IMG/VR virus record: IMGVR_UViG_3300009103_001934
Span: 62,001 to 126,000 of that record
DNA: 64,000 nt
DNA from: a virus
Direction: 5' to 3' (one strand)
A model generated the notes under the pieces. The model did no database searches and had not been told where the DNA came from. It saw only the letters and a program-made list of their open reading frames with translations. Below, one piece after another: positions 2,778 to 58,835 of this stretch. Made by a program: the position numbers and the translations under genes. Positions within the stretch are counted from its first letter, which is position 1, and each line of letters begins with the position of its first letter.

Positions 2778-3623
2778 ATGAAGATAGGTATTGTTGGCAA
2801 CGGTTACGTAGGGGGAGCAACCGCCCTATTAAAGAACAGAAATGTCGAGGTATTAGTATATGACATAGATGCCGAGAAATGTAGCCCGAAAGGGATAAGT
2901 ATGGACGACATAGCGGGCTGTTCGTTTGTTTTTGTGTGCGTGCCTACACCCATGGATCAAGATGGAAAATGCAGTCTCGTTTTAGTGGAGGGAGTTATAG
3001 ATGATTTGGCTAGTCGCGGCTTTGATAAAGGCAGAGCAGTCATAAAGTCCACGGTTCCTGTCGGAACCTCCAGAAGACTGGGAACGATGTTCATGCCAGA
3101 ATTTTTAACGGAACAAAATTGGAAGCATGATTTTTTGTCGCAGAAAACTTGGATACTCGGGACAAATGAAAGAGACGACAAGATAAGAGACGAAATCTAT
3201 GCGATTTTTGACGCAGCTTGGCATGATGGAGTGTTAACGCATAGGCCGCACATGACTTTCTCTACAACAGAGGAAGCGGAGCTTACAAAATATGTTAGAA
3301 ATACTTTTTTGGCAACCAAGGTGGCGTTCTTTAATGAGATAGAGCACTTTTGCAGGACCGCTAACGTTAGTTACCGTAAGGTAAGAGAGCTTACATTATA
3401 CGATGATCGAATAGGGGACACGCATACCTCCGTGCCCGGACCGGACGGTAAGAGAGGGTTTGGGGGCACTTGTTTCCCCAAAGATATTTCATCGTTGCTG
3501 CACCAAATATTAGATAAAGGAATGGTGTCCTACGTATTAATGGCCGCAAGAAACAGAAATATTGATGTGGACAGGCAAGAAAAAGACTGGGAACGTGACA
3601 AAGGAAGAGCCGTAGTTGAATAA
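2778..3623 (+). CDS. UDP-glucose/GDP-mannose dehydrogenase-like, short form
   Basis: About 281 aa. GIVGNGYVGGA is the NAD-binding loop, CVPTPMDQDG and KSTVPVGTS are UGD family signatures, and GFGGTCFPKD around residue 232 contains the catalytic cysteine. Known enzymes oxidise a UDP-sugar C6 alcohol to a uronate. This copy stops about 100 residues early compared with typical 390-450 aa members, so the C-terminal UDP-binding domain is missing or minimal. A TATAAT box ends 6 nt before the ATG; a GTG is directly upstream in frame. Confidence 0.82.
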   Translation: MKIGIVGNGYVGGATALLKNRNVEVLVYDIDAEKCSPKGISMDDIAGCSFVFVCVPTPMDQDGKCSLVLVEGVIDDLASRGFDKGRAVIKSTVPVGTSRRLGTMFMPEFLTEQNWKHDFLSQKTWILGTNERDDKIRDEIYAIFDAAWHDGVLTHRPHMTFSTTEEAELTKYVRNTFLATKVAFFNEIEHFCRTANVSYRKVRELTLYDDRIGDTHTSVPGPDGKRGFGGTCFPKDISSLLHQILDKGMVSYVLMAARNRNIDVDRQEKDWERDKGRAVVE

Positions 3624-4713
3624 AAAGGACGGAAAAAAGTTAAAAGATTTTTACAAACGCTTAGAGCAGGAAGAAAAAACGTTTGTTGGGTATCCTGTAA
3701 ACTCGTCCTTTGATTATTCGGAGCTATTTGATTTTTTATCTATACCCTTAAATAACGTGGGGGATCCGTTTAGTTCTAGCTACTATGGACTAGACTCTAG
3801 AGATTTTGAAAAAGAAGTGCTAGACTGGTTTTCTAAATTATACAAAGCGCCCTCGGAAAATTATTGGGGATACGTAACTAACGGTGGGACGGAGGGTAAT
3901 TTGTATGGGCTTTATTTGGCCAGAGAATTGTATCCGAAGGGAGTAGTTTATTATTCTCAAGACACGCACTATAGCGTAAGCAAAAACATACGAGTGCTTA
4001 ACATGGAGCACGTTATGATAAAGTCTAGGCTTAATGGAGAAATGGACTACGAAGACTTGTCTAACATGATGTCGACTTGGAGGAGCGCGCCGCCAATAAT
4101 TTTTGCCAACGTGGGAACGACGATGAGAGAGGGGTTTGACAGTATATGTGAAATCAAAAAGGCGCTAAAGAAGCTGGCGATACCAGAATATTATATTCAT
4201 GTAGACGCAGCGTTAGGGGGCATGACTTTACCCTTCATAGATAATGCGCCGCCTTTTGATTTTACAACGGGAGTACAAAGCATGTCTATTAGCGGCCATA
4301 AGTTAATTGGTTCACCGATTCCTTGCGGTATAGTTTTAGCGCTAAAAAGTAATGTAGGCAGGGTTTCTAGAGCAGTTGAGTATGTTGGTTCACTGGACAG
4401 CACTATTAGCGGCTCACGTAATGGTTTTACCCCACTAGTGCTTTGGTATGCTATAAAAAAATATGGCTTTAATGGTTTTAAAAAGGTAGTCAGATACTGC
4501 GTAAGAACAGCGGATTATGCGACGCGAAAAATGAATGAGGCAGGAATAAAAGCTTGGAAAAATGATCATGCTATAACAGTGGTCTTTCCCAGACCTAAAG
4601 AAGAGATAGTAAAAAAGTGGAAGCTAGCCGTACAGGATGATATAGCTCACATTATTTGTATGCCCCAAGTTACGAGGCCCACAATCGATAAGATCATTAA
4701 AGACCTAAATTAA
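3616..4713 (+). CDS. hdc: Histidine decarboxylase, PLP-dependent
   Basis: 365 aa. From memory the sequence follows bacterial PLP-type histidine decarboxylases almost end to end: GYP near the start, WGYVTNGGTEGN, DTHYSV, PIIFANVGTT, HVDAALGGM, SGHKLIGSPIPCG with the PLP lysine at about residue 229, and ITGSRNG-like SGSRNG. Product would be histamine from histidine. The best start is TTG overlapping the end of the upstream gene, because the next residues align with the family N-terminus and no ATG is nearby. It is unusual to find it inside a phage glycan cluster; the physiological role is unknown. Confidence 0.86.
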   Translation: MNKKDGKKLKDFYKRLEQEEKTFVGYPVNSSFDYSELFDFLSIPLNNVGDPFSSSYYGLDSRDFEKEVLDWFSKLYKAPSENYWGYVTNGGTEGNLYGLYLARELYPKGVVYYSQDTHYSVSKNIRVLNMEHVMIKSRLNGEMDYEDLSNMMSTWRSAPPIIFANVGTTMREGFDSICEIKKALKKLAIPEYYIHVDAALGGMTLPFIDNAPPFDFTTGVQSMSISGHKLIGSPIPCGIVLALKSNVGRVSRAVEYVGSLDSTISGSRNGFTPLVLWYAIKKYGFNGFKKVVRYCVRTADYATRKMNEAGIKAWKNDHAITVVFPRPKEEIVKKWKLAVQDDIAHIICMPQVTRPTIDKIIKDLN

Positions 4714-7337: not shown

Positions 7338-8285
7338 ATGAAAACTTTATTCGCCACTATCCTCGGTCTCACCATCGCAACGTCATCGTTTGCGGCTGAG
7401 AAGAAACAGTCCACGGCAGAACATCTTCAGAACGTTTCTGTCACAATTAGATCCGAAGGCCAATTCTCTAATGGAGAAGGGTCGGGGGTAATCTTTAGTC
7501 GAAAAGATAAAGATGGTAATTTGGTGAATTTAGTATGGACCGCCGGTCATGTTATAGATAACTTAAGGTCTACTAGAAAGACGGTGATAAATGGTACATC
7601 GAAAACGATCGTAGAGTTTAAAGATCCGATGGTCGTAAAAGAAATCAGGCAAAACGGAAGGACCGTCGGTAGATTACAAATGGACGCAGAGGTGTTAAAA
7701 TACTCAGACGCCAAAGACGGACACGATCTCGCATTATTGCGCGTGAGAAAGTTAAATTTTGTTACAGATACGGTGGCCTTTTATCTTGATAAAGAGATTC
7801 CCCCGTTAGGCACAGACCTTTTACACGTTGGTTCGCTATTAGGGCAAATGGGAGCGAACAGTATGACTGATGGTATCTACTCTCAGCACGGTAGACTAAT
7901 TAAGTCATTAAATAAATTCGTGTTCGATCAGACAACTTGTACGGCGTTCCCCGGATCGAGTGGAGGTGGAGTATATTTAAAAAAAGACGCTAGATATGTA
8001 GGAATGTTGGTCCGTGGAGCGGGAGAGGGCTTTAATCTTATCGTGCCGGTGCGCAGGATGGTTGAGTACGCGGAAAAGCATAAAATTATGTGGGCATTAG
8101 ACAAAAATGTACCTATGCCTAGCGAAGATGATCTAAAAAAGATGCCTGTAGAACACGAACCGAAAGCGAAGAGCGATAAAGATGACGACACGGCAGACGA
8201 AAAAGCGGCGAAGAAAATGTTTCCATACATGCTTCGAGTAACTTACCCTAAGATCCTTATTTTACAGAAAAAGCCGCTAGATTAA
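7338..8285 (+). CDS. Secreted trypsin-like serine protease
   Basis: 315 aa. Signal peptide of about 20 residues ending SSFAA. The chymotrypsin-fold triad is visible: His71 in WTAGHV, Asp130 in GHDLALL and Ser208 in FPGSSGGGVY, plus GEGSGVIFS early in the first barrel. The last 60 residues are charged and probably disordered (KSDKDDDTADEKAAKK) with a hydrophobic end. It would act in the periplasm or outside the cell; substrate unknown. A TATAAT box lies about 20 nt upstream and a strong terminator follows. Confidence 0.85.
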   Translation: MKTLFATILGLTIATSSFAAEKKQSTAEHLQNVSVTIRSEGQFSNGEGSGVIFSRKDKDGNLVNLVWTAGHVIDNLRSTRKTVINGTSKTIVEFKDPMVVKEIRQNGRTVGRLQMDAEVLKYSDAKDGHDLALLRVRKLNFVTDTVAFYLDKEIPPLGTDLLHVGSLLGQMGANSMTDGIYSQHGRLIKSLNKFVFDQTTCTAFPGSSGGGVYLKKDARYVGMLVRGAGEGFNLIVPVRRMVEYAEKHKIMWALDKNVPMPSEDDLKKMPVEHEPKAKSDKDDDTADEKAAKKMFPYMLRVTYPKILILQKKPLD

Positions 8286-8872: not shown

Positions 8873-8901
8873 TTGACATACATTAGGAAAACGTGTAATA
8901 T
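8873..8901 (+). promoter_or_regulatory. tmRNA promoter
   Basis: TTGACA, 17-nt spacer, TAATAT. The -10 box ends 8 nt before the first paired base of the tmRNA acceptor stem, so transcription should begin at or within 1-2 nt of the mature 5' end. Confidence 0.85.
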
Positions 8902-8909
8902 ATAAACAC

Positions 8910-9327
8910 GGGAGCGTACTGGATTCGATTTAGAACCTTACGCCAGATTGCAAGCAGAGGATAATGGTTGGCCTCTTTAAATATCCATTAACAACATATA
9001 TGCCAATAGTGATATTGACATGGAGTTCGCTCCTTCTTTAGCTGAAGCTGACGAGATTCTCGCCAAGTTCGGCTACGTGGAGGAAGAAGAGCTCCAGCTG
9101 GCAGCATAAGTTCTGCCCCGTCCTACTCTGGATGCTCGTTAAGGAGCTAGGGCGTCGACAGCGAGCAAAAAAACTAGGAAGGGTGAGGAGTCTAGGATAA
9201 ATAAAGTGCCTCCAACCTCGTGTGTAGTTGTCAGTGATGAAGCACGAAAAATAACACTGACTAAGCTTGTAGTACATTTGAGCCGATGGCTTTAAAGACG
9301 CGGGTTCGACTCCCGCCGCTTCCACCA
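8910..9327 (+). ncRNA. ssrA: tmRNA (one-piece) with an unusually long tag
   Basis: The 5' GGGAGCG pairs with the 3' CGCTTCC followed by ACCA, giving a 7-bp tRNA-like acceptor stem with encoded CCA, and the T-arm GGGTTCGACTCCC is intact. The 5' arm shows the conserved GTACTGGATTCGA. Pseudoknot 1 is visible: AGAGG/CCTCT (8956-8960 with 8972-8976) interlocked with AATGG/CCATT (8963-8967 with 8985-8989). Twelve nt later a GCC resume codon at 9002 opens a 35-codon frame ending ...ELQLAA then TAA at 9107-9109. Tag-end LAA is the usual protease recognition end. Function: rescue of stalled ribosomes and tagging of the nascent chain for degradation. Confidence 0.95.
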
Positions 9328-9333
9328 ATTAGC

Positions 9334-9918
9334 ATGAGAATCACAGAGAATCGAGATGAGTTTGTAAAATACGTTTCTGGTCTTTCACCTAAAGGTAGTG
9401 TCTGTGCAGAAATAGGGGTCCTTACAGGGAGTTTTTCTCTGAAAATATTTAAATACATTAAGCCAAGTAAATTATTTTTAATAGACCCGTGGGAAAAGGG
9501 GCGCGATAAAAACGGAGAGCCTACATACAAGGAGTTTGGAAACTTACCTACAGCTTATAGTACCCCAGAGCATCTTGATATAGTTAAGGCTGCTTTTTCA
9601 AAGGAGATTACAAATAAAACAGTTGTAATTAAAAAAGATTTTTCCTATAATGTCGTAGATTCTTTTCAGAATAACTTTTTTGATTTTATATATATTGATT
9701 CCTGTCATCTCTATGAATGCATAAAGTCGGATCTGAAAATATTTTTGCCTAAATTAAAAGAACAAGGCTTAATGTGCGGACATGACTACGCTAATAAGCT
9801 AGGATTTGGAGTGGTTAAAGCTGTGGATGAATTTATTTTAGAGAATAACTTCGAATGGGTCGCTAAGAGTAAAGAGAAGGACCCTGACTGGGCCCTAAGG
9901 CGTCGTAAGCGAACATGA
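9334..9918 (+). CDS. Class I SAM-dependent methyltransferase
   Basis: 194 aa from the ATG at 9334, 7 nt after the tmRNA CCA; an upstream in-frame ATG lies inside the tmRNA. SVCAEIGVLTGSFS is the SAM loop, LFLIDPWEKG the next acidic loop, FDFIYIDSCHLYE the catalytic/metal segment and GLMCGHDYA the late motif, as in Methyltransf_24 sugar/peptide O-methyltransferases. Probable glycan modification given its neighbours. Confidence 0.78.
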   Translation: MRITENRDEFVKYVSGLSPKGSVCAEIGVLTGSFSLKIFKYIKPSKLFLIDPWEKGRDKNGEPTYKEFGNLPTAYSTPEHLDIVKAAFSKEITNKTVVIKKDFSYNVVDSFQNNFFDFIYIDSCHLYECIKSDLKIFLPKLKEQGLMCGHDYANKLGFGVVKAVDEFILENNFEWVAKSKEKDPDWALRRRKRT

Positions 9919-19504: not shown

Positions 19505-20464
19505 ATGAAATATAAAGAATACATAGATGACGATCAGGTCAAGGAGTTGCTTGATAACAAATGGCACCAAGTCATAGAGGCTGTTGAACAAGCCTTTGTC
19601 GATCCGACGGCAGACATGGTTCCCAAGACCTATCTTCAGGGTAAGTACGGAGATTTTAGAGCTATGCCAGCAGCACTCAAAGCTTATGCATCGCTGAAGT
19701 GGATTGGGGTATTTCCAAAAAATTGTGAGGTTAATGATCCAGATAATTTTGACGGCCCGGCCCTTCCAACGACACTCGGAACGCTTATTCTCAGCGATAG
19801 GCACACGGGCTATCCGTTAATGGTGATGGACTGTACGACCTTGACTGCGTACAGGACAGCGGCTACTTCAGCGATAGCAGCTAAATATTGCGCGCCCAAC
19901 GCCACAGAGTTCGCTTTTATTGGTTGTGGGTTACAAGCTAGATACCATATCGAAGCTTATGAAGCCATCTTTGGCCACACGGAGATGGACGTTGCGCTAT
20001 ATGACAAAAATGAAAAGGCGCAAAAGGATTTATTTAATTGGCTGGGGGAGCAAAATATTTGTAGAGCTTGGGGCAGGAATAAATCAGTAAAGGAAGCGGT
20101 CAAACACGCAGACGTCGTTACTACTCTTACACCATCTACAACACCTTATTTGGACATCCACGATATTAAAAGTCACTGCCATATCAACGCTGTCGGTGCT
20201 GATGCAGAAGGTAAACGGGAGTTGATGACTAATGTAATTGATGGTTCAGCAGATGTTATTTGTGATGACCCGGAACAAGCTTCGCATTCTGGGGAACTAC
20301 AATATAATGTTTGGCCCCACTTGAGTGTCGCTACTATGGCCGATTTAATTAAAGGCCATAAAACCATGCAGCTAGATAAGGGTGTGTCAGTATTCGATTC
20401 TACCGGAGTGGCTATTGAAGACATAGCTATCGCAGAATTAATTTATAGACTATCTCACCAGTAA
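19505..20464 (+). CDS. Ornithine cyclodeaminase / mu-crystallin family
   Basis: 319 aa. KTYLQGKYGDFRAMPA, LGTLILSDRHTGYPLMVMDC, LTAYRTAATSAIAAKY and FIGCGLQARYHIEA (NAD-binding loop) follow the ornithine cyclodeaminase order; later NAVGADAEGKREL and VATMADLI also fit. Known reaction: ornithine to proline plus ammonia. Other family members act as ketimine reductases or alanine dehydrogenases, so substrate is not certain. Starts 7 nt after tRNA-Arg. With proline dehydrogenase at 23514 it suggests an ornithine to P5C route. Confidence 0.82.
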   Translation: MKYKEYIDDDQVKELLDNKWHQVIEAVEQAFVDPTADMVPKTYLQGKYGDFRAMPAALKAYASLKWIGVFPKNCEVNDPDNFDGPALPTTLGTLILSDRHTGYPLMVMDCTTLTAYRTAATSAIAAKYCAPNATEFAFIGCGLQARYHIEAYEAIFGHTEMDVALYDKNEKAQKDLFNWLGEQNICRAWGRNKSVKEAVKHADVVTTLTPSTTPYLDIHDIKSHCHINAVGADAEGKRELMTNVIDGSADVICDDPEQASHSGELQYNVWPHLSVATMADLIKGHKTMQLDKGVSVFDSTGVAIEDIAIAELIYRLSHQ

Positions 20465-20476
20465 CTATAATAAATA

Positions 20477-20959
20477 ATGAACATTAGTATGACCACCTTC
20501 ACTAAATGGTTTCTGCTTAACGCAGTCATGTTTACAGGGGTATTCTTCGCGGAAACCAAGGGAGCAATATCGTTAATGGTAAAAAATGACGTAAGTTATT
20601 TAACTGTAGTAATAATGACGTTATACGTTGTCGTTTCTGTGGTGGTTGGAAAATTATGCTATATAGCAGATAAGATAGAAAAAGGGATGCAGCCAAATTT
20701 AAGAAGGCAGCTTTCTAAACAAGCGGAAGTCGGTTGGTTCGCGGCGGAACATTTTTTTTCATTAGGCTTATTGGGTACTGTTTTTGGACTATGCGTAGCG
20801 ACTTCAACTAGCCTCACAGAAGGTAATGAAATAAGCGAGATTGTGTCTGGACTTAAAACTGGCCTAAACACGGCGTTTTATACTACTATCTGTGGGATAG
20901 TATTTAGCTTACCGCTACAGGCTCAGTTAATAATTTTAAGGTTCAAGCTCGAGGAATGA
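20477..20959 (+). CDS. MotA/TolQ/ExbB-type proton channel subunit
   Basis: 160 aa with three membrane segments. The family core is clear: FSLGLLGTVFGLCVATS followed by GLKTGLNTAFYTTICGIVFSLPL, the pore helices of ExbB/TolQ/MotA proteins. It is coupled by ATGA to a partner gene carrying the ExbD-type aspartate. Expected to sit in the inner membrane and use proton flow to drive a periplasmic partner. Confidence 0.82.
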   Translation: MNISMTTFTKWFLLNAVMFTGVFFAETKGAISLMVKNDVSYLTVVIMTLYVVVSVVVGKLCYIADKIEKGMQPNLRRQLSKQAEVGWFAAEHFFSLGLLGTVFGLCVATSTSLTEGNEISEIVSGLKTGLNTAFYTTICGIVFSLPLQAQLIILRFKLEE

Positions 20960-21561
20960 TAAATAAGGGGTATAAGAAGTTTTTTTCGTTTAGGCCATTT
21001 ATCGATGTGCTCTTTTGCTGTCTATTAATGTTAGTGGCGATCCTTTTTCTTTTGAAGACAGAGGAGCAGAAGACCAAGTCTCGACCACCTAATGTTATTT
21101 ATGAAGTAGTGTTAACATGGGATGGAAATAGCGAAGACGACTTAGACCTTTATGTTAAGTCTGCGGCGGGACATATCGCCTCATTTAACAGGAGAGAAGG
21201 GGGGCAGGGCAGCTTAATTAGTCTGGACCATGACGCTTTAGGTAAACGCAGAAATAACAGTTTAACAGAGGGGCAAGAAGGAACAGTAGTTGAGTATAAT
21301 GAAGAGATTACATCTTTTCGGGGAGTTACTGCTGGCGAAAATGTAGTCACCGTCCATGTGTACGCAAAGAGAGACGAAAAACCCACTTCAGCGACAATTA
21401 AATTAATTAAAATTAAACCATATAAAGAAGTTATTGTAAAAAAGAAAGATTTTTCAGCGACAGGTCAAGAGATCACCGCCTTTCGTTTCATAACAGATAA
21501 GGACGGGAATATAGTGGATATTAATGAGCTACCGGCAAATCTGGTTAATCCATTAGAGTAA
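20956..21561 (+). CDS. ExbD/TolR-like subunit with periplasmic beta domain
   Basis: 201 aa. N-terminal FRPFIDVLFCCLLMLVAILFLL is the single ExbD/TolR-type membrane helix with the proton-carrying Asp17. The periplasmic part (residues 45-130, VVLTWDGNSEDDLDLYVKSAAG) resembles the DUF2135/YfaP-type calcium-like beta domain (DxDxxV pattern), not the usual ExbD/TolR or OmpA-like domain. A second small region follows to residue 201. This combination is uncommon. Confidence 0.72.
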   Translation: MINKGYKKFFSFRPFIDVLFCCLLMLVAILFLLKTEEQKTKSRPPNVIYEVVLTWDGNSEDDLDLYVKSAAGHIASFNRREGGQGSLISLDHDALGKRRNNSLTEGQEGTVVEYNEEITSFRGVTAGENVVTVHVYAKRDEKPTSATIKLIKIKPYKEVIVKKKDFSATGQEITAFRFITDKDGNIVDINELPANLVNPLE

Positions 21562-23513: not shown

Positions 23514-24356
23514 ATGAGTTTATTATATCCATTAGCGAAGCGCTTTATTGCTGGGCACAGCTTTGAGTCAGCTAAGCCGGTAATAAAAAAGATGATAGAT
23601 GACGGGTATGAAGTCTCTGTAGATTTCATGGGAGAAAACAGTACGACTTACAAACAAGCGAGAAAAGCCTATAAGCAATATAAAGAAATAATCAACGAGC
23701 TTAAAGATTACAATATAGATATTTCCATTAAGCCGTCCCAGCTTGGGCTAAATATTCATCCTTATTTATCTTATATATTTTTACATAGTTTAACCAAGCT
23801 CTCATCAAAATACGGGCAGACCATACGTTTAGATATGGAAGATTCATCCGTGACAGAACTAACTCGTAATCTGGCGATATCTTTACACAAAAAATACGGT
23901 AACGTGGGCGTAGCCGTACAAGCTAACCTTTATCGAACGAGCGAAGACCTAAGGCACTTAATAAAATTTGGAGTCTCCATTAGGCTCGTTAAGGGAGCAT
24001 ATAAAGAGAGTCCTCAAGTAGCACATGCTTACGAGGACCATGTTAAGGCCAGCTTCTTTGACTATGCCGCGCGTTTATATTCAGAAAAAGCAAATAAGCC
24101 AGCAATAGCGACGCACGATGAAGAGTTACTTAATGATATAGAAGAACTCATTCCCAACGCTCATTCCTTCTTTGATTATGAGTTTCTTTACGGAATACGC
24201 AGAGATTTACAAAAAAGCTTGAAAGATAAGGGGGCTTGTGTTAGAATATATATACCGTTTGGAACCGAGTGGTTGCCATATACGATGAGAAGGTTGAGAG
24301 AATGGAAGAACTTAAAGTTCGTAATTAAAAATATATTTAAAGAATGGTTTTCTTAA
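23514..24356 (+). CDS. Proline dehydrogenase (PRODH)
   Basis: 280 aa, single-domain monofunctional form. Family landmarks in order: SIKPSQLGL, TIRLDMEDS, VGVAVQANL, IRLVKGAYKE, ATHDEELL, EFLYGIRRDLQ and VRIYIPFGTEWLPYTMRRLRE, i.e. the FAD-binding barrel including the R-x-x-R proline carboxylate site. Reaction: proline to P5C with electrons passed to FAD. Together with the ornithine cyclodeaminase and aldehyde dehydrogenase genes it suggests phage-driven amino-acid catabolism. Confidence 0.88.
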   Translation: MSLLYPLAKRFIAGHSFESAKPVIKKMIDDGYEVSVDFMGENSTTYKQARKAYKQYKEIINELKDYNIDISIKPSQLGLNIHPYLSYIFLHSLTKLSSKYGQTIRLDMEDSSVTELTRNLAISLHKKYGNVGVAVQANLYRTSEDLRHLIKFGVSIRLVKGAYKESPQVAHAYEDHVKASFFDYAARLYSEKANKPAIATHDEELLNDIEELIPNAHSFFDYEFLYGIRRDLQKSLKDKGACVRIYIPFGTEWLPYTMRRLREWKNLKFVIKNIFKEWFS

Positions 24357-33574: not shown

Positions 33575-34156
33575 ATGAGACTAGATCATATAGCTTATAG
33601 ATCGAAAGACAGGAAGAAGACAGCTAAGTTTTTTAAAGATTGTTTCGGTTATAAAGTCGGGGCAGAATTTGATTTGAAATTTGATGACGGCAGCACTACT
33701 GATTGTATAGCCCTTGCTCCTCCCGAAAAAAGGCATGACGAGACGGAAAATTGGATTTTTAAGAAATTAATGGCTACCCACTATGCTGGGCCGTCCGACC
33801 CGCTATACATGGTAGATTGTGAGTTTCATGCTCCCCCTGAGATTTTCGTTAGCGATGGCCCAGCGGGCTCCATAGTAGGTGACTGGGTGGAAGAACGAGG
33901 AGGGATAGGCGGCGTACATCATATGGCTTACCAAGTTGAAGATGTGGCGGCGACCATGCAATTATGGAAAGAGAAAGGGTACGCAGAGTTTTATTCGGAA
34001 GAGCCCTTAGTTTGCGAAGAAACGCACCTTACGCAAGTTTTTTCAAAGCCTTCCGAATTAACAGGGGTAATTTATGAGCTTATTAAAAGGGGTAAGGATA
34101 ATAAAGGGTTTTGCGAAGTCAACGTTAAAGGACTTATGGAAAGCACTAGGAAATGA
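33575..34156 (+). CDS. VOC-family protein, HPPD-like
   Basis: 193 aa. His5 (LDHIAY), His116 (GGVHHMAYQV) and Glu168 (VIYELIKR) are the three iron ligands of 4-hydroxyphenylpyruvate dioxygenase; the tail QVFSKPSELTGVIYELIKR then GFCEVNVKGLMES matches the HPPD C-terminal pattern. Only one VOC domain is present against two in HPPD, so it may be a homodimeric relative with another substrate. Confidence 0.65.
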   Translation: MRLDHIAYRSKDRKKTAKFFKDCFGYKVGAEFDLKFDDGSTTDCIALAPPEKRHDETENWIFKKLMATHYAGPSDPLYMVDCEFHAPPEIFVSDGPAGSIVGDWVEERGGIGGVHHMAYQVEDVAATMQLWKEKGYAEFYSEEPLVCEETHLTQVFSKPSELTGVIYELIKRGKDNKGFCEVNVKGLMESTRK

Positions 34157-34157
34157 T

Positions 34158-35696
34158 ATGAGAGACTTTGAAGGTAGAAATTATATAAACGGAGAGTGGA
34201 GAGCCACTTCAGAAATGTATACCAAAATTAATCCGTCTACGGGTAAAGCTCAGGGAGCGTTCCCCTCGAGTGGGCCAAGTGAGGTAGCTAAAGCTGTACT
34301 GTGTGCGAGAAAGGCCTTTAGAAAATGGAGAAAAGTCAGCAGATTTGTTCGTTCGGATTATATGAATAAGGTGGCGCAATTAATTGAAGAGCGCAGAGAT
34401 AAGCTCGCAAAGGTGATTTCGTTAGAAACTGGAAAAAATTATAATGAATCTATTGCGGAAGTGAATGAGGCCCTACATATGGCCCAATTCGCTTTCGGTT
34501 CTGGCCGCTACCCTCATGGAGAAGCGGTAGCGTCTGAAATTGAGGATAAAGATTCTTATATGCTTCGTAAGCCAAAAGGTGTAATAGCTATAGTAACACC
34601 TTTTAATTTTCCACTAGCTATCGGTATGTTTTGGAATGCCGCACCGGCCCTAGTGGAAGGAAATACGATTGTAATTAAACCAAGTGAAGATGCTCCGATG
34701 TCAACGCAAATGGCTGTCCAAATTTATGCGGACGCTGGTATCCCACGCGGGGTCATTAATATGGTTCACGGTGACGGTACTACTGGTAATCTCTTGGTTC
34801 GTGATGATGTCGATCATATTTGTTTTACTGGTTCTGCCGATGTCGGACAACATATTCGTAAAGTGGCTGCTGAATCTTGGCACAAAACTACCTCCTGCGA
34901 ATTAGGAAGTAAGTCGGCCTGCATCGTTTTCGATGACGTGGAGTTAGACTTGGCCGTGGAAGCGGCGGTAGCAAGCGCATTTAAATTATCTGGACAGAGA
35001 TGCGTTTCTTCTGGACGGATGATCGTTCAAAGGAACATCTTGAATGGGTTCATCGCGAAGTTCGTAGAAAAGGCCTCCAAATTAAAGACGGGTAATCCGT
35101 TTACATCTAATCTCGGTACGTCAGGATGCCCTGACGGTATGGTTTGGGAAGAGTTAGTACCGGATAATAATATTTATTACGGCCCCATAATAAATAAACA
35201 AGGGTTTGAGAAAATAAAAAAATATAACGAGATGGTTAGGGTTGATAGAGATGCTGAAGTCTTACTCGAGCCAAGCTACGAGACAATAAATGATAAAGCT
35301 TTTTATTCGACGCCTATGGTATATAAGAGTGAATGGCGTGGTATTGATGCCCCATATCTCAGGGACGAGGTTTTTGGTCCTCACGTAGCCATTATCCCCT
35401 TTGATACAGTCGAAGACGCGATTCGCATTTATAACGATACGGAATACGGGCTTGCGGTTGGAATCTTGACAAACGACTTCAGGAAAGCTAGGCTTATGCG
35501 GGACGAGTGCGACGCGGGTATGATTTATTGGAATGGTGGTTCTATTGCCGCCGAATCTCATCTTGCTTTTGGTGGTGTTAAGAAGTCTGGAAACGGATTC
35601 CCAAGTGCTGCCAGAACTTTTAGAGCAGTAACCCATGAAATAAGTTGGACGGTTAATCATGCGGATAGATTAACTTTTCCCCAAGGAATGAAATAA
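34158..35696 (+). CDS. Aldehyde dehydrogenase (ALDH superfamily)
   Basis: 512 aa from the ATG at 34158; an upstream in-frame start overlaps the VOC gene. RNYINGEW, VTPFNFPLAIGMFW, FTGSADVGQHI, CELGSKSACIVFDD with catalytic-base Glu248, and SGQRCVSSGR with nucleophile Cys282. The end (TFPQGMK) recalls alpha-aminoadipic semialdehyde dehydrogenase; a P5C or succinate-semialdehyde-type role is also possible. It could finish proline or lysine catabolism together with neighbouring enzymes. Confidence 0.85.
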   Translation: MRDFEGRNYINGEWRATSEMYTKINPSTGKAQGAFPSSGPSEVAKAVLCARKAFRKWRKVSRFVRSDYMNKVAQLIEERRDKLAKVISLETGKNYNESIAEVNEALHMAQFAFGSGRYPHGEAVASEIEDKDSYMLRKPKGVIAIVTPFNFPLAIGMFWNAAPALVEGNTIVIKPSEDAPMSTQMAVQIYADAGIPRGVINMVHGDGTTGNLLVRDDVDHICFTGSADVGQHIRKVAAESWHKTTSCELGSKSACIVFDDVELDLAVEAAVASAFKLSGQRCVSSGRMIVQRNILNGFIAKFVEKASKLKTGNPFTSNLGTSGCPDGMVWEELVPDNNIYYGPIINKQGFEKIKKYNEMVRVDRDAEVLLEPSYETINDKAFYSTPMVYKSEWRGIDAPYLRDEVFGPHVAIIPFDTVEDAIRIYNDTEYGLAVGILTNDFRKARLMRDECDAGMIYWNGGSIAAESHLAFGGVKKSGNGFPSAARTFRAVTHEISWTVNHADRLTFPQGMK

Positions 35697-41233: not shown

Positions 41234-41366
41234 AAATAGCTTTGTTTATCAGCGCGAAGGAGTTAGGAAGAAAACTCGACAAGGAGCAGGAAGACGCAGT
41301 AAGGGTATGAAAAAATATAGGGGTCAAGGAGGGCCGCGAAAAAGATGTAAACTGTCTAAAAAATGA
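41226..41366 (+). CDS. Small basic phage protein
   Basis: 46 aa. VRKKTRQGAGRRSKGMKKYRGQGGP resembles a short arginine/glycine-rich protein found in several phage groups. An AAAAGGAGAG Shine-Dalgarno-like site is 3-12 nt upstream of the ATG, one of the few good SD sites here. Confidence 0.55.
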   Translation: MTKNSFVYQREGVRKKTRQGAGRRSKGMKKYRGQGGPRKRCKLSKK

Positions 41367-42487
41367 GAGCAATAGTACTAGGAGTAGGGAGAATGGGGAC
41401 AGCCATCGCTTATGCGATGGACAAGTTTGGGTTTGAGGTGACAGGTATGGACACAAACCCAGATGCGGCAAAAAATATGCCGTTTAAAATAAATAATCAG
41501 CCCGACCCTAGAAATGACTTTTTCATCGTAAAGGACGCAGAAGACATTTGCGACGGAATAGTAGCGAGCGGGCCTAGGCCAGATGTTGTTATTAGTAGTT
41601 TACCCTATCACCAAACAGAAGTGGTGGGAAAATGGTGCGTGGATAATGAGGTTCGTTACTGTGACTTGGGGGGCAGAGTAGACGTTTCTAAAAATATTAA
41701 CGACCACGCTAAACAATTTGCTACTCGCCCAGTGTTTACGGATTTAGGTCTGGCCCCGGGTTGGGTAAATATTTTAGCCGAACAAGGGTACAAAGAACTA
41801 AACGGGCCAGCGGATGATACACATATTGAAATGATGGTCGGAGGTTTACCGGATTATTTAAAAAGCTCGAAAAACCCTTTGCGTTATGCAGTTACTTGGT
41901 CTGTTGACGGATTAATTAATGAATATAGGGATGATTGTCTCGTGCTTGAGAATGGGCAAATAAAAATCGTAAAAGGAATGGAGGGCTTAGAGCAAGTGGA
42001 GGGTGAAAAGTTCGGCCCGATGGAGGCTTTTTATACTAGCGGCGGAGCTTCGCATTCTATTTATTCCATGCAAGCTCGTGGGGTTAAGAATTGTTCATAT
42101 AAAACTCTGAGATATAAAGGGCATAGAGATATTGTTAAATTTTTGATTAGAGATTGCAATTTGGCTGACGAGACATTAAATAAAATTTTTCTTGAAGGCT
42201 GTGGGACGACAAATAAGGACGAGGTTATTATTGTAGCTAGAGTGAAAAGGGGCAATAGAGCTTGGGTGGAAGAAAAGGTTATTAAAGCTGATGATAAATT
42301 TACAGCTATGCAAAAAGCTACAGCGTTTTCAATTTCGTCTGTCGCAGCGATAATGGCTGAAGGAAAATTGGAGGGAAATAAAGAACAACACAGGGATTAT
42401 TGGACTCAATATCCAAAAGCTTTATCCTATGCGGACGTACCGTTTGATAAGTTTAATGCTAATTTAAAGTTTTTGTTGGAGCCATGA
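41363..42487 (+). CDS. Saccharopine dehydrogenase-like oxidoreductase
   Basis: 374 aa. AIVLGVGRMGTAIAYAM is the NAD(P) loop, DVVISSLPYHQTEVVGKWC and VFTDLGLAPGWVNILAEQG are signatures of the saccharopine/lysine 6-dehydrogenase family, where substrates are lysine-derived imines or related diamino acids. The exact substrate is open. With the ALDH it could oxidise an amino acid to a carboxylate via a semialdehyde (inference). Confidence 0.8.
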   Translation: MRAIVLGVGRMGTAIAYAMDKFGFEVTGMDTNPDAAKNMPFKINNQPDPRNDFFIVKDAEDICDGIVASGPRPDVVISSLPYHQTEVVGKWCVDNEVRYCDLGGRVDVSKNINDHAKQFATRPVFTDLGLAPGWVNILAEQGYKELNGPADDTHIEMMVGGLPDYLKSSKNPLRYAVTWSVDGLINEYRDDCLVLENGQIKIVKGMEGLEQVEGEKFGPMEAFYTSGGASHSIYSMQARGVKNCSYKTLRYKGHRDIVKFLIRDCNLADETLNKIFLEGCGTTNKDEVIIVARVKRGNRAWVEEKVIKADDKFTAMQKATAFSISSVAAIMAEGKLEGNKEQHRDYWTQYPKALSYADVPFDKFNANLKFLLEP

Positions 42488-58332: not shown

Positions 58333-58835
58333 ACAGTGAGGGTAACACCTCCACGATCTTTGAGACAATTTAAGAAGGCGACTGTGGTAGTCCTCACGCA
58401 AGTGAGTGCCCTCGCGGGAAAGCCCCCAGTGGAAGCGCGACGAAACTGGACGGTGATACGATACCGGAGGGATGGGGTTCGACTCCTCACGCCCTAACAA
58501 TTTAAGCCTTGGGTGACGGAACAAACGTCCGACAGAGGAAACGGCCCAAGCAATTTTTACTCCGGCGACGGTTGGAGTAAGGGAATGGCTGAATAACCCT
58601 CCATCATAAGGGGTAAGGCACAGGGCCGCGCGTTAGAGTGCAATCGTATGAGGCGCGTGGTTCTGGTAGACTGGTAAACTTGAACTGTATTGTGCACTGG
58701 TCTTGATGGTAATGCAGCAATCCATCTTCCCATTAATTTAGCATAATCCTGAGGTTGGTGAAAACCATTAAAGAGATATTAAGCAACAACGCCGAAATCC
58801 GCCTCTGATTTTTTTTGCCCTAATGTTAATTTTTT
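58333..58835 (+). ncRNA. Putative large structured noncoding RNA
   Basis: No open reading frame of normal quality. Hairpins seen by eye: CTCAC-GCAA-GTGAG (GNRA loop), CGGT/ACCG, TGGGG-TTCGACT-CCTCA (T-arm-like), TTACTCC/GGAGTAA, CCGCGCG/CGCGTGG, GATGG/CCATC, TGGT-GAAA-ACCA. A promoter is at the start and a T8 run plus the first GGGACCGGTCCC terminator at the end. Similar in spirit to large ornate phage RNAs (GOLLD, ROOL), but I cannot match their motifs. Exact 3' end uncertain. Confidence 0.6.

Follow-up and report, generated by a model that had tools for sequence, protein, structure and literature searches.

The peptide tags encoded by tmRNAs are usually viewed as short C-terminal degrons. 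Their commonest length is 10 residues (PMC11915505), and published tags range from 8 to 35 residues (PMC8012679, PMC2862035). In E. coli tmRNA, the resume codon lies 12 nt past pseudoknot 1 (PK1), and the main determinant of the reading frame is A86, that is, an A at position -4 (PMC2481249). The tag of Mesoplasma florum, AANKNEENTNEVPTFMLNAGQANYAFA, is recognised by the organism's own Lon, and internal parts of the tag are important for this recognition (PMC8138137, PMC9097571). Among phages, the OM43 phage Melnitz, a marine T4-like myophage, carries its own tmRNA (PMC9004378).

The locus described here lies in a window of 64,000 nucleotides, the whole stretch of DNA analysed, which corresponds to bases 62001-126000 of an uncultivated virus record 178,487 bases long; the virus is a large phage, with rIIA-, clamp-loader- and ligase-type genes. 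The original prediction, made from the letters of the window, described a complete phage tmRNA with an acceptor stem, PK1, a T-arm and CCA, and this description held in full. The Rfam covariance model RF00023 matched positions 8910-9327 of the plus strand end to end (model 1-374 of 374; 125.7 bits, E 1e-48, gathering threshold 47), and ARAGORN calls the same gene, a complete one-piece tmRNA (ssrA) with an encoded CCA. The 5' strand of the acceptor stem (GGGAGCG, 8910-8916) is partnered by CGCTTCC (9317-9323), PK1 occupies about 8957-8990 according to the Rfam alignment and direct reading, and the T-arm, the 3' acceptor strand, the discriminator A and the CCA span 9296-9327 in the covariance-model match; a D-loop is also present. 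The stem contains G3:U70 (8912 and 9321), the alanine identity pair. Among 39 distinct relatives, G3:U70 is kept in all 39, and acceptor pairs 4 (A-T, G-C or C-G) and 6 (C-G or T-A) covary in a compensated manner. These results indicate that the capacity of this tmRNA to be charged is being preserved.

The tag reading frame comprises 35 codons and a TAA stop at 9107 (9002-9109, plus strand), begins with the GCC codon at 9002-9004, and encodes ANSDIDMEFAPSLAEADEILAKFGYVEEEELQLAA. In the Rfam alignment, UGCCAAU lies opposite the consensus UGCaAAC, which puts GCC 9002 at the consensus resume codon and not at a position downstream of it. Upstream of the GCC there is an A at -4 and a T at -1; the -4 A is shared by 65 of 76 family members. 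The GCC had been predicted to lie 12 nt after PK1; by our own count the gap is 11 nt, which corrects the figure and retains a spacing near that of E. coli tmRNA. The resume offset was 92-94 in 72 of the 94 genes retrieved without regard to the tag. Across 16 distinct relatives with 35 codons, the GCC is invariant, and the diversities at the first, second and third codon positions were 0.22, 0.10 and 0.27 for tag codons 1-14 and 0.08, 0.11 and 0.30 for codons 15-35, respectively, whereas the 30 nt upstream of the GCC were flat across the phases (0.41, 0.40 and 0.38). The covariance-model alignment, the A at -4 and the codon-level constraint in relatives together argue for resumption at GCC 9002 and a tag of 35 residues, as predicted. 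The uniqueness that had been implied for this length was not sustained, because published tags reach 35 residues (PMC8012679, PMC2862035), which places the window tag at the known upper end of the range and not past it. Judged from its sequence and from those of its relatives, the region 8910-9327 has a complete tRNA-like domain, PK1, the GCC resume codon at 9002, a 35-codon tag and a stop, and is probably a working phage tmRNA.

A -35 hexamer, TTGACA (8873-8878), and a -10 hexamer, TAATAT (8896-8901, within GTGTAATAT), are separated by 17 nt on the plus strand, and the latter lies 8 nt ahead of the mature 5' end (G8910), as had been read originally. In 20 kb, 60 promoter-like sites were seen versus 51 expected by shuffling, the TTGACA/TAATAT pair being one of these. 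The comparative data support a promoter aimed at the mature 5' end: of 60 distinct genes, 37 carry TGTA between -17 and -12 relative to G1, compared with 5 that have it anywhere in the adjacent control stretch, and a TTG at a spacing of 16-18 nt was found in 15 of the 37 relatives with TGTA, against a background of about 4%. A -10 box 4-9 nt ahead of the mature 5' end thus recurs in the relatives, and these patterns make plausible a sigma-70-type start no more than about 2 nt from G1, with a very short leader. A phage-wide GTGTAA promoter motif was also considered and was rejected, as it was not enriched within the window. In L130, L131, L163, L167, L169, L185 and L027, a BoxA-like element, GTTCTTTnACA (GTTCTTTGACA in the divergent members), sits 0-6 nt ahead of where the mature tmRNA begins, often directly after a tRNA gene, and possibly serves in the antitermination of phage tmRNA transcripts. 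Since divergent members follow a tRNA gene or a BoxA-like element, the near-leaderless layout is common and not universal.

At the other end of the gene, the ATG of an ORF encoding a PF13578 methyltransferase (9334-9918, plus strand) lies 6 nt past the CCA, and this ORF is therefore probably cotranscribed with the tmRNA. Protein ORFs start at most 35 nt past the CCA in 25 of 36 relatives, mostly at 5-15 nt, with differing downstream genes, and the tmRNA trailer is ATTT in 26 of 39 relatives. Maturation of the tmRNA 3' end would leave such a downstream mRNA nearly leaderless.

Relatives of the tag were collected by pattern scans of IMG/VR, using the 5' end, the tag motif or both, and were checked with ARAGORN and Rfam. 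These scans yielded about 60 distinct viral tmRNAs whose tags are built like the window tag, with a polar start, the core A-P-S-[LV]-x-E-A-D-x-I-L-A-x-F-G, an aromatic residue, a run of acidic residues and, usually, AA at the end. We define the long-helix phage tag family by A-[PM]-S-[LV]-x-E-A-D-x-I-L-A-x-x-G inside a tmRNA tag, a motif that the window tag contains. The divergent members L130, L131, L163, L167, L169 and L185 have the core AMSLxEADAILAxxGF and end in ELELV or similar. One phage contig, L045, which has a long-tag tmRNA and a tRNA cluster, also carries a pistol ribozyme (RF02679, 2882-2950, plus strand).

In a tag-blind control scan with a generic 5' end, TGGTTTCGAC, ARAGORN called 86 tmRNAs with a median tag of 13 residues; only five tags had at least 29 residues, and one of these (L221) was of the window's type. 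A second tag-blind control scan, with the family-like 5' end, returned 95 distinct phage tmRNAs with a median tag of 30 residues. The window type accounted for 44 of 94, an upper estimate because the set also includes loci already retrieved by the tag scans whose 5' ends fit the pattern, and the others were class II (LLAEAEYIFNNADEFL; 12), class III (AKTAKYKGHISARVSLVEMTASVA; 18), a basic G-start class (12) and others (8). The class II tags are 31-39 residues long, and both they and the basic 24-residue class (AKTAKYKGHISARVSLVEMTASVA) are conserved over many contigs; the IMG/VR loci behind the second long class and the basic class include L201, L316, L325, L335, L372, L383 and L393. Homology between the class I and class II tags was unsupported (hhalign probability 18.7%).

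The family was then sought outside these phages. A scan for EAD-x-ILA-x-FG in contigs of 84,980 bacterial and archaeal species gave 30 hits, none in a tmRNA and all within protein reading frames of at least 82 codons. The A1 profile, which recovers 13 of the 18 phage records with E below 1e-12, was also run over 399 genomes from the phylum to which G061 belongs and gave a single chance match there, inside a reading frame of 408 codons. Among the INPHARED phages, blastn searches with five members returned T-arm fragments only or nothing, and a short-peptide tblastn, a weak test of doubtful sensitivity run without a positive control, returned nothing. In the literature searched, we found no description of such phage tags. 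On sequence comparison, the 35-residue tag is a member of a family of tmRNA tags that appears to be specific to phages, as a helix-tag variant of the known one-piece tmRNA. The conservation of the core in dozens of uncultivated phages, together with its absence from the bacterial tmRNAs searched, suggests that rescued proteins receive a signal peculiar to phages.

The core of the window tag, APSLAEADEILAKFG (9029-9073, plus strand), appears to be under selection as a peptide. Over 58 distinct cores, the diversities by codon position were 0.18, 0.16 and 0.46, and none of 20,000 permutations was as extreme; in addition, 57% of the codon differences were synonymous, compared with 24% for random changes. 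These results indicate peptide-level selection on the core across phages. The near-invariance of the core E, A, D, I, L and A is partly due to ascertainment, as these residues were demanded by several of the scan patterns. The core A, S and G, which were not all demanded by the patterns, were found in 57, 56 and 54 of the 58 distinct cores, respectively, whereas the terminal AA was found in 33 of 52 distinct tags, indicating that conservation is higher in the internal core than at the classical end of the degron. Even distant members share 9-14 of the 15 core residues with the window, while their RNA past the stop is only about 45-55% identical; the conservation of the core thus appears to outlast the similarity of the RNA body.

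AlphaFold2, given the single tag sequence, predicted helices at residues 13-23 and 28-33 with a mean pLDDT of 78.8. The core is accordingly drawn as a predicted helix with S as its N-cap and G as its C-cap: S12 and E15 would fit an N-terminal capping box, and G24 would fit a C-cap. A PDB profile search with the tag gave no match, and a Pfam match of the tag to DksA-like_N (E 0.035), below the cut-off, was taken as chance. The earlier suggestion that the tag may carry another signal gains indirect support from the strong conservation of an internal helix as a peptide across phages.

We propose that the locus encodes a working trans-translation tmRNA with a two-part degradation tag, consisting of an LAA grip and a helix for docking, and we give this reading an even chance of being correct. 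The tmRNA would be driven by its own sigma-70-type promoter, with transcription presumably beginning no more than about 2 nt from the mature 5' end, and would be charged by the host alanyl-tRNA synthetase. A search of 44 phage records for SmpB found none, and the protein that binds the tmRNA would therefore be the SmpB of the host. During infection, it would rescue stalled ribosomes and append Ala plus the 35 residues. The window tag ends in QLAA, matching the C-terminal LAA of the ClpX-type ssrA degron, and this end would be gripped by ClpX-type unfoldases of the host, while the capped helix would serve as a docking element for an adaptor, unfoldase or protease of the host or the phage. Proteins tagged in this way may be handled differently, or faster, than with the short tag of the host. 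Some members end in VE, LV or AV without AA, and the ClpX-grip half is therefore not universal.

An ordinary tmRNA with a merely long tag, in which the LAA alone is important and the helix serves as a passive spacer inherited within the lineage, would explain the LAA terminus of the window tag as well as the variable N-terminal tag codons among the relatives, and it would agree with the known tags of 8-35 residues (PMC8012679). A passive spacer, however, would not be expected to show the strong codon-phased constraint seen in the helix, to keep its core residues once the RNA body is no longer similar, or to persist in several members that lack AA, and we consider this explanation unlikely, although it deserves to be taken seriously. 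Alternatively, the tag may be non-degradative or diverting, with the phage outcompeting the host tmRNA to free ribosomes and the products going to another fate (a phage partner, sequestration or protection) and not mainly to ClpXP. The helix is the best conserved element, and divergent members with a terminal ELELV or VE in place of LAA still have it, but the AA in 33 of 52 distinct tags is that of normal degrons and no conserved partner gene was found beside the tmRNA, so that this explanation seems to us quite unlikely.

Candidates for a partner were sought among the genes of the phages. SspB and ClpS of phage origin were found in none of 30 records. A ClpP-like gene was present in 11 of 30 records, including that of this phage (G000 138692-139471, outside the window); among PHROGs it matches a head maturation protease best, which leaves the ClpP-like protein as no more than a lead. 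A conserved neighbour as the partner was rejected, because the tmRNA contexts vary among the relatives: recA, nuclease, DnaB and primase genes in some, PhoH and sigma genes in others, and further arrangements, none of which matches the window. Near the tmRNA, the window encodes a trypsin-like protease (PF13365) with an apparent signal peptide (7338-8285, plus strand) and a signal peptidase I (PF10502; 5441-5995, minus strand). Elsewhere, it contains a manA RNA motif (RF01745, 77.9 bits; 58558-58736, plus strand) and a set of amino-acid metabolism genes unusual for a phage, comprising a PLP decarboxylase, an ornithine cyclodeaminase, a proline dehydrogenase, an aldehyde dehydrogenase and a saccharopine dehydrogenase (3616-4713, 19505-20464, 23514-24356, 34074-35696 and 41363-42487). 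A MotA/TolQ/ExbB-like protein (PF01618, E 7e-6) and the product of the next ORF, which is ExbD-like by eye with no Pfam match (20477-21561, plus strand), possibly represent a phage-encoded proton channel pair.

Beyond the two-part degradation tag, we tentatively put forward, as a proposal that may well prove wrong, that uncultivated phages have evolved a tag family of their own in which the folded helix, and not the AA, is the main signal and diverts what stalled ribosomes produce to a partner or fate chosen by the phage. If so, a virus would re-code the trans-translation of its host. A widespread phage-only family with its strongest conservation in an internal helix would mean that phages may decide the fate of the products of stalled ribosomes. 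The tag core also offers a concrete, testable peptide with which a new adaptor or protease could be sought, and possibly an orthogonal degron.

That the gene is a host tmRNA carried along passively or left as a remnant, with no function in the phage, is very improbable: integration at host ssrA is common and phages can acquire pieces of it (PMC9004378), but the RNA is full-length with a covarying acceptor stem, the promoter position and the selection on the peptide are conserved over many phages, and this type of tag is absent from the about 85,000 bacterial and archaeal species scanned. Equally improbable is the tag called by ARAGORN, EADEILAKFGYVEEEELQLAA, of 21 residues from GAA 9044; a TTAGCT like the E. 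coli upstream element precedes this GAA, with A at -4, but the covariance model puts the resume position at GCC 9002, tag codons 1-14 are constrained, the GAA lies 53 nt from PK1 compared with 12 nt in E. coli tmRNA (PMC2481249), and ARAGORN itself begins the tag at A[ND].. in many close relatives. ARAGORN can thus under-call long tags of this kind.

Among known systems, the window tmRNA shares with the E. coli-type one-piece tmRNA (ANDENYALAA) its architecture, G3:U70, the spacing between PK1 and the resume codon, a GCN resume codon and LAA, whereas it has 35 codons instead of 10 and a conserved internal capped helix, and is encoded by a phage, with no SmpB of its own found. Mesoplasma florum also has a long tag; it belongs to an organism that is not a phage and that lacks ClpXP, and it differs at the C-terminus and has no EADxILA helix. 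The window tag and the published Mesoplasma/Mycoplasma-type Lon degron have no motif in common. Bacillus phage G likewise encodes a complete one-piece tmRNA, with a 13-residue tag, AKLNITNNELQVA, that lacks the helix motif, whereas the tmRNA of Melnitz is a two-piece permuted gene of the alphaproteobacterial type (PMC9004378), as opposed to the one-piece gene in the window. The class II and class III phage tmRNAs differ from the window in their tag peptides and share with it the 5' signature of the tRNA-like domain, the resume-codon offset and the long tags.
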